Shown here piece by piece: positions 29,587 through 29,925 of a DNA stretch of 64,000 nt; position 1 is the first letter of the stretch, and every line of letters begins with the position of its first letter. The stretch lies in contig NZ_KB897905.1 in the NCBI RefSeq assembly GCF_000377205.1, forward strand, positions 368,586-432,585. Direction: 5' to 3'. The stretch comes from Thioalkalivibrio sp. ALJ3. GTDB lineage: Bacteria; Pseudomonadota; Gammaproteobacteria; Ectothiorhodospirales; Ectothiorhodospiraceae. The notes beneath the pieces were generated by a model, which was given only the letters and a program-made list of their open reading frames with translations, had not been told where the DNA came from and ran no database searches. The position numbers were made by a program, and so were the translations under genes.

Positions 29587-29663
29587 GGGCCTGTAGCTCA
29601 GTTGGTTAGAGCAGGGGACTCATAATCCCTTGGTCGTCGGTTCGAGTCCGACCGGGCCCACCA
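29587..29663 (+). tRNA. ileX: tRNA with CAT anticodon, probably tRNA-Ile2
   Basis: 77-base cloverleaf including encoded CCA. The acceptor stem GGGCCTG pairs with 29653-29659, the D arm has GCTCAGTTGGTTAGAGC, the anticodon loop is CTCATAA, and the T arm is GTCGG-TTCGAGT-CCGAC. CAT can mean elongator Met or Ile2 (lysidine-modified). The variable-region sequence TTGGTCG and the position beside rpoD resemble E. coli ileX, so Ile2 is preferred, with elongator Met as the alternative. Its 3' end is repeated downstream. Confidence 0.9.
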
Positions 29664-29925
29664 CTCGCTTGCGCTCCTGTTGGGCGGGTCGGACTATTCC
29701 AGTCGCGCGCCTGCCGGCGCACGCCGTTCCGGCCTCGCGAAGACAGGCTTCGCGCCGCTGCGCGGCCGGCCTCCACCCAACCGGGCCCACCAATCGCTTG
29801 CGCTCATGCTGGGCGGGTCGGACTATTCCAGTCGCGCGCCTGCCGGCGCCCGCCGTTCTGGCCTCGCGAAGCCATGCTTCGCGCCGCTGCGCGGCCGACC
29901 TCCACCCAACCGGGTCCACCAATCG
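29651..29925 (+). repeat. 129-bp tandem repeat beginning with the tRNA 3' end
   Basis: Units start at 29651, 29780 and 29909 with an exact 129-base period. The first two are full length (about 8 mismatches outside the shared start), and the third is a 17-base stub. Each begins with the tRNA 3'-terminal 13 bases (ACCGGGCCCACCA; one change in the third). Each full unit also holds GGTCGGACT, complementary to the tRNA T-arm, and a conserved hairpin CGCGAAG-5 nt-CTTCGCG whose loop differs between units while the stem does not. Protein-like open frames here are artefacts of the period being divisible by three. Confidence 0.9.

Follow-up and report, generated by a model that had tools for sequence, protein, structure and literature searches.

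Tandem 129-bp trailer units behind a tRNA(CAT) gene of Thioalkalivibrio sp. ALJ3 are probably a second type of RtT-like element

Two tandem 129-bp units lie directly behind a tRNA(CAT) gene of Thioalkalivibrio sp. ALJ3, and each of them ends in a copy of the 3' end of that tRNA. The pair probably consists of tRNA trailer units of the RtT kind, belonging to a second type associated with tRNA-Ile2, in which recombination homogenizes the copies and the hairpins are under selection. The RtT kind is already known, and judged by sequence the present units appear to be a variant with the same plan that lies outside family RF00391 as tested. RtT was reportedly first described by Bosl and Kersten in 1991, and we know of no settled function for it.

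The tRNA gene and its tandem units

The window (the whole stretch of 64,000 bp that was analyzed) holds one tRNA gene, at 29587-29663 on the plus strand with anticodon CAT; upstream of it, an rpoD open frame has its last base at 29482. We take it to be tRNA-Ile2 by elimination, the two other CAT tRNAs of the genome appearing to be elongator and initiator tRNA-Met. The parts of the locus are as follows.

29587..29663, plus strand: tRNA gene, anticodon CAT, found by the tRNA model (presumably Ile2, by elimination)
29664..29792, plus strand: unit 1, 129 bp, with an exact terminal 13-base copy of the tRNA 3' end
29679..29695, minus strand: degenerate inverted copy of the tRNA T-arm and acceptor 3' strand in unit 1, 82% complementary to 29645-29661
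29780..29792, plus strand: tRNA 3' end copy inside unit 1
29793..29921, plus strand: unit 2, 129 bp, terminal tRNA 3' end copy with one mismatch
29909..29921, plus strand: tRNA 3' end copy inside unit 2, C to T

An earlier note on this DNA had described a CAT tRNA followed by 129-bp tandem repeats, and this description is borne out: positions 29648-29776 and 29777-29905 form a direct repeat of 129 bp with 93% identity, and TRF gives the array a period of 129 and 2.1 copies. The same note had the tRNA's terminal 13-mer, ACCGGGCCCACCA, recurring exactly at 29651, 29780 and 29909; the first two are indeed exact, but the third (29909-29921, ACCGGGTCCACCA) carries one mismatch. Four matches to the 13-mer with at most one mismatch are present in the window versus 0.23 expected, and none of 100 shuffles reaches four; the fourth match, at 51546, is unrelated to the array. 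The identity between the tRNA 3' end and the unit copy extends over 13 nt exactly, or 16 nt with one mismatch. The general plan of such a unit is that it stands behind the tRNA or a preceding unit and comprises an inverted, degenerate T-arm copy (its unit 2 counterpart is at 29811-29824), about five small hairpins, and a terminal copy that starts near the T-stem/T-loop border.

No terminator-like or promoter-like site was found in 29400-30100. Two open frames run over the repeats, one of 100 aa at 29620-29922 (minus strand) and one of 267 aa at 29680-30483 (plus strand); these are probably by-products of the tRNA-end and repeat sequence and not genes. Elsewhere in the window, an array of 17.5 copies of the 6-base unit GAGCCA occupies 19709-19813. 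On the minus strand, 31503-34401 encodes a ribonucleotide reductase large chain (32224-34401) and then a separate 233-aa protein with a cysteine-rich end and no Pfam match, possibly a split B12-dependent enzyme.

RtT units in the genome and in the class

Trailer units stand behind 8 of the 42 complete tRNA genes of this genome (from a scan that gave 43 tRNA model matches). Copies of the tRNA 3' end lie downstream of Gln(TTG), Gln(CTG), Arg(ACG), Ser(GCT), Ser(GGA), Ser(CGA) and the window tRNA; the copy in the Arg(CCG) unit lacks CCA, and that unit is recognized by its plan only. The seven tRNAs other than that of the window have a common plan, which runs tRNA, often a hairpin, the T-arm reverse complement, GGTTCGA (GTTCGA in Arg(CCG) and GGTTCGG in Gln(CTG)), mini-hairpins, ATCC and the tRNA 3' end. 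The E. coli tyrT locus shows the same plan and can be aligned with these units, and RF00391 (membership cut-off 45 bits) scores above its cut-off behind Gln(TTG), Ser(GCT) twice, Ser(GGA) and Ser(CGA). The likeness to tyrT and its rtT RNA that the earlier note had drawn is thus right in kind, given the RF00391 units behind Gln(TTG) and three tRNA-Ser genes and the 67.6 bits with which model R1, made from ten of this genome's own copies, scores the E. coli RtT; the window unit itself, however, has no RF00391 match. R1 finds matches in 27 of the 30 Thioalkalivibrio genomes. In the class as a whole, RF00391 has matches at E 0.001 in 51 of 274 genomes, 19 of them above the cut-off, and among 14 control genomes in one, that of E. 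coli.

RtT units were compared with their host tRNAs across 87 model matches in 63 loci, of which 56 are distinct and have a tRNA less than 300 bases upstream. A tRNA 3' end copy was located in 46 of these 56 units and not in the other 10, and it is identical to the host tRNA over 19 nt in 31, 18 nt in 12 and 15 nt in 3. Since the identity ends at 18-19 nt in 43 of the 46, the RtT break falls inside the T-loop or beside it. The longest inverted T-arm/acceptor stretch in the RtT spacer averages 7.8 nt versus 5.0 in shuffles, and it exceeds 99 of 100 shuffles in only 18 of the 46 units. By a loose rule with no shuffle control, 20 of 50 distinct spacers have a terminator-like hairpin between the tRNA and the RtT unit, which argues against obligatory co-transcription with the tRNA. 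The portions of PMC4986893 that bear on this point describe RNAs of the RtT family on Northern blots in Actinobacillus and, for E. coli RtT, an RNA released from a tRNA read-through transcript.

Some loci of this kind have peculiarities of their own. The Arg(CCG) locus of the present genome (L184) carries an RtT-like unit with four GCA-triloop hairpins, which scores below Rfam gathering and is followed by a weak window-type match. In three genomes (G000, the genome studied here, at C1:300500-302000, G001 and G020) a second copy of tRNA-Gln(TTG), with an RtT core in its T-loop (GGTTCGA/ATCC), adjoins the intact gene, and this interrupted copy lacks CCA. The interrupted copy may be a deletion product or something intron-like.

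Relation of the window-type unit to RtT

RF00391 gives no match in the window at the gathering threshold, nor in 29480-30000 at E ≤10, and none at gathering in the related loci L003, L013, L178 and L179, so that plain membership of the window type in RF00391 was rejected. When an RtT model (R2) was run with filters off, window-type units reached E 0.03-0.3 at best, on the strand opposite to the tRNA, and the best R2 match in those loci is not a unit; a profile HMM comparison of the window-type core with RtT gave similarity no higher than that of shuffles. Homology of the two cores by sequence was set aside, R2 and the profile HMM having given nothing significant. On these comparisons the window unit would be a second type, with no detectable core sequence in common with RF00391. 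In the literature searched, RtT-like units are reported neither at tRNA-Ile2 nor in Thioalkalivibrio.

A tentative possibility, somewhat unlikely in our estimate, is that the window type is a canonical RtT core that diverged after recombination between its inverted T-arm copies had turned it round. By eye, the minus strand gives its hairpins (described below) in the order GNA mini-hairpin A, the longer B, the 3-bp GAA-loop C, the long D and GGAATAGTCC, and RtT has the comparable order A, B, CCCGAAGGG, D, GAGTAATCC. Among the nine best R2 matches in 12 loci, five are window-type units, all on the strand opposite to the tRNA, but these five reach only the E values of 0.03-0.3 given above, are not independent because they come from orthologous units, and have no counterpart in the profile HMM scores, which do not rise above shuffles. 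Inversion between the inverted arms would explain on which strand the loops lie; the order of the hairpins fits by eye, and the sequence tests offer no proof.

Distribution of the window-type unit

With the first trailer as a BLAST query, matches were obtained in 19 of 58 genomes. The matches of 21-37 bp (all of those in G004, G013, G026, G030 and G034, and two of the four in G020) were discarded, there being no tRNA in the locus and the matches looking by eye like chance similarities in open reading sequence. This left 14 of the 58 genomes with the unit, all Thioalkalivibrio, and a further part of a unit was read behind the tRNA in G027; the window-type unit is therefore present, whole or partial, in 15 of the 30 Thioalkalivibrio genomes. 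No unit was found in the other 15, some of which are incomplete or have an element inserted. Apart from G014, G019 and one contig of G020, where the sequence breaks off within the unit, it lies in the relatives directly behind the tRNA or behind a tRNA 3' part. Two units are present in the genome studied here and in G022 (where the second is degenerate), one in G001, G025, G012, G010, G008 and G002, and one plus a part of another in G003; these numbers may be too low, as contigs are broken and a run of N lies at the locus in G006. The units of G008 and G010 have internal deletions. Other sequence follows the tRNA in 9 of the 12 loci read (G002, G004, G009, G011, G015, G017, G021, G024 and G026).

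A model built from 14 related window-type units (R3) has matches in 5 of 274 and 4 of 370 genomes of the class, the two samples overlapping; these are in Thioalkalivibrio, G245, G161 and G237. The G237 match was dropped, its nearest tRNA being a tRNA-Trp about 0.9 kb away. G245 and G161 belong to two other families, and in both a tRNA(CAT) like that of the window precedes the units, which number three in tandem in G245 (129, 129 and 122 bp matched, the third with a degenerate end) and one in G161. R3 has no match in three other genomes of the G245 family; the G161 family is represented by G161 alone. A weaker R3 match lies behind Arg(CCG), beside RtT-like units, in the present genome and in G025. 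The search of relatives for copy number that the earlier note had recommended thus shows variation from one to three units, and the stem and period, whose absence from relatives would have spoken against the note's reading, are not absent, as the period of 129 and the model hairpins recur in another family.

The terminal copy tracks the host tRNA from lineage to lineage. Its final 16 nt are those of the host tRNA in two of the three G245 units (CCTACTGGGCCCACCA), in G161 (CCTACCGGGCCCACCA) and in G003 (CCTGCCGGGCCCACCA), and in unit 1 of the present genome it differs from the tRNA at 1 of 16 nt. In addition, G245 has two tandem copies of a 117-bp unit similar to the second type (L185, contig C29, ~207590-207860); there is no tRNA in the 3.1-kb locus, and no further copies were found in that genome.

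Hairpins and structural constraint

Four of the hairpins are placed as follows in unit 1.

29704..29723, no strand assigned: hairpin D, sense loop TGCC, with one mismatched pair here (8 of 8 pairs form in G003)
29724..29732, minus strand: mini-hairpin C, CCG-GAA-CGG, GNA triloop
29736..29754, no strand assigned: hairpin B, CGCGAAG/CTTCGCG, second copy at 29865-29883
29755..29765, minus strand: mini-hairpin A, CCGC-GCA-GCGG, GNA triloop; relatives show all four bases at N

The stem CGCGAAG/CTTCGCG was said in the earlier note to be kept in both units while its 5-base loop varies, and it is found so at 29736-29754 and 29865-29883, where the loops are ACAGG and CCATG, respectively. Over five hairpins in 14 units, 93.1% of 319 cells are paired, compared with 25-45% when the partners are slid. 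Of 25 pairs, 3 have changes on both sides, each seen in one sequence only, and these are spread over three of the five stems; 3 of 500 shuffles reach that. One base pair fails in 10 of 12 sequences. We are moderately confident that the hairpins of the window unit are under selection on structure. The earlier suggestion of selection on RNA structure gains from the 93.1% pairing and from the hairpins and the 129-bp period in another family, but both-sided changes reach only 3 of the 25 pairs.

The loops give a clearer signal than the pairing and folding do, and point in part to the other strand. At least one GNA-triloop hairpin is present on the antisense strand in 14 of 15 window-type units and on the sense strand in none of the 15, although some of these units are partial and most are orthologous, so the counts are not independent events. 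Unit 1 of the present genome has two GNA hairpins with stems of at least 4 on one strand, which 13 of 5000 shuffles match. The loop of hairpin A occurs as GCA, GTA, GGA and GAA, with G and A fixed and N free, and in G245 hairpin A has a different stem, TGCC-GTA-GGCA, that is kept in all three units; by the rule used, there are no GNA hairpins in the G161 unit or in the second-type matches behind Arg(CCG). DNA mini-hairpins with GNA loops are described as exceptionally stable in a section of PMC4686876. Because the GNA loops are biased to the minus strand, the constraint would lie at least partly on single-stranded DNA or on an opposite-strand transcript, as the bias itself suggests. Folding of the sense RNA gives z -1.23 for unit 1, which is not unusually stable, and z -2.58 for the tRNA with both units; for single-stranded DNA, the z values are -0.06 (plus) and -1.84 (minus) in unit 1 and -1.58 (plus) and -0.93 (minus) in unit 2, a mixed picture across the units.

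It seems unlikely that the units are a neutral tandem duplication of the tRNA 3' end with palindromic filler, functionless and kept alike by recombination alone. The degenerate second unit of G022, the internal deletions in G008 and G010, the 15 of 30 genus genomes without a unit (some incomplete or with an inserted element) and the unexceptional stability of unit 1 are what such a duplication would lead one to expect. It does not account for the preservation of the model hairpins and the period of 129 in another family, for the fixed G and A of a loop whose middle position takes all four bases, or for both-sided changes in three of the five stems.

Mechanism and level of action

For the preferred reading, that of a second RtT-type trailer unit, near-identical tRNA 3' ends would supply the homology for unequal crossing-over and gene conversion, and such exchanges between tRNA 3' ends would create, delete and homogenize units. 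With less confidence, the units may be read through from the tRNA promoter, because no terminator was found between the tRNA and the units, and RNA might be released at the CCA-ended copies, by analogy with what is reported for E. coli tyrT. Three observations speak against a role at the RNA level only: the terminator-like hairpins before many RtT units, the opposite-strand GNA loops, and the unit of G002, which is intact though about 90 kb from the complete tRNA.

RtT and the window unit might instead both belong to a wider DNA-level class, made up of clusters of very stable GNA mini-hairpins seated at the T-loop point where tRNA 3' ends have been duplicated. Such clusters would spread from one tRNA gene to another, gain or lose copies through recombination or single-strand exchange, and be transcribed only incidentally. 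We give this reading about one chance in a few; it is suggested by the minus-strand hairpin signature, which RNA released from a tRNA transcript would not lead one to expect.

With its RtT plan and its hairpin signature on the other strand, the sister type offers a natural way to test RNA-level against DNA-level function, as does a genome with units behind 8 of its 42 tRNA genes. The units also indicate that several copies of a tRNA 3' end can persist and evolve in step with the tRNA, a point of relevance to tRNA annotation and to integration hot spots.

Palindromic repeats and integrative elements

It is rather improbable that the unit is a REP-like palindrome, unrelated to RtT, that was captured behind tRNA-Ile2 and serves mRNA 3' ends or folds on the opposite strand. 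The GNA loops are on the minus strand, a convergent minus-strand open frame (29968-30396) would read into the units, and the similar tandem pair of G245 stands in a locus with no tRNA; on the other hand, the downstream sequence differs by eye in G012 and G003, and a copy that follows the tRNA is left unexplained. Nor is the unit a dispersed repeat in the present genome, where BLAST finds a single locus and no other copy; R3 gives one further, weak match, behind Arg(CCG).

We very much doubt that the unit arose as a scar or by accretion of integrative elements whose attachment site is this tRNA. Integration at the tRNA does occur: the 6.3-kb element of G026, which carries a tyrosine integrase, has the tRNA on one side and the displaced 3' part on the other, with no unit behind that part, and tRNA 3' parts without a 5' half are also found in G002, G017 and G023. 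In these last three, however, the unit is on the far side of the displaced part, an arrangement suggesting that it was there before the insertions. The block common to the tRNA and the displaced part (BLAST extent) is 45-50 bp in G002, G011, G023 and G026, where it starts at tRNA position 28-33, and 35 bp in G017, where it starts at position 44, and it runs to the 3' end; as these blocks begin on the anticodon side, the integrases use a stretch longer than the 13-mer. The unit copy, at 13-16 bp from the T-arm, does not correspond to the exchanged block of 35-50 bp, and the proposal in the earlier note that the repeated tRNA ends act as attachment sites finds no support here. Its other proposal, that they are decoys for RNase P/RNase Z processing, is unsupported too, with nothing found for or against it. 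The G026 element (L171, G026:C9:117700-125200) encodes, besides the integrase, a phage gpA-like replication protein and a 545-aa protein with a dCMP-deaminase domain. The latter appears to resemble the AvcD defence proteins.

A phage, plasmid or viral origin was rejected, since no phage or plasmid record covers 80% of the tRNA and the units, the matches listed (20 of 860 and 20 of 880 records) extend over the tRNA and at most ~20 further bases, and the exact pattern occurs in 0 viral contigs.

Comparison with known systems

Partial tRNA gene copies flank integrative elements at attL and attR, as set out in part of PMC9897764. Like these, the window has a partial tRNA 3' copy behind the tRNA gene, but the copy is shorter and starts in the T-arm, and the spacing of 129 bp leaves no room for an integrase. 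The likeness to REP and BIME sequences lies in the short GC-rich palindromes, and a passage of PMC2965389 counts rtT-like elements among the BIMEs; unlike REP and BIME sequences, the window unit is not dispersed in the genome (by BLAST), is tied to a tRNA and carries a tRNA 3' end.

With RtT the window unit shares its position directly behind a tRNA, its ending in a copy of that tRNA's 3' end from the T-arm, the inverted T-arm copy upstream, the cluster of small hairpins and, in some genomes, tandem copies. The two differ in host, which is tRNA-Ile2 for the window type and Tyr, Ser, Gln and Arg tRNAs for the RtT units considered here, and in the reach of the copy, which is 13-16 nt in the window versus 18-19 nt, into the T-loop, in RtT (43 of 46). 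They differ as well in the strand of the GNA triloops, a feature found in this analysis and not one set by Rfam: in RtT these lie on the tRNA strand (mean 2.39 sense and 0.05 antisense in 80 distinct sequences), whereas in the window type they lie on the opposite strand.
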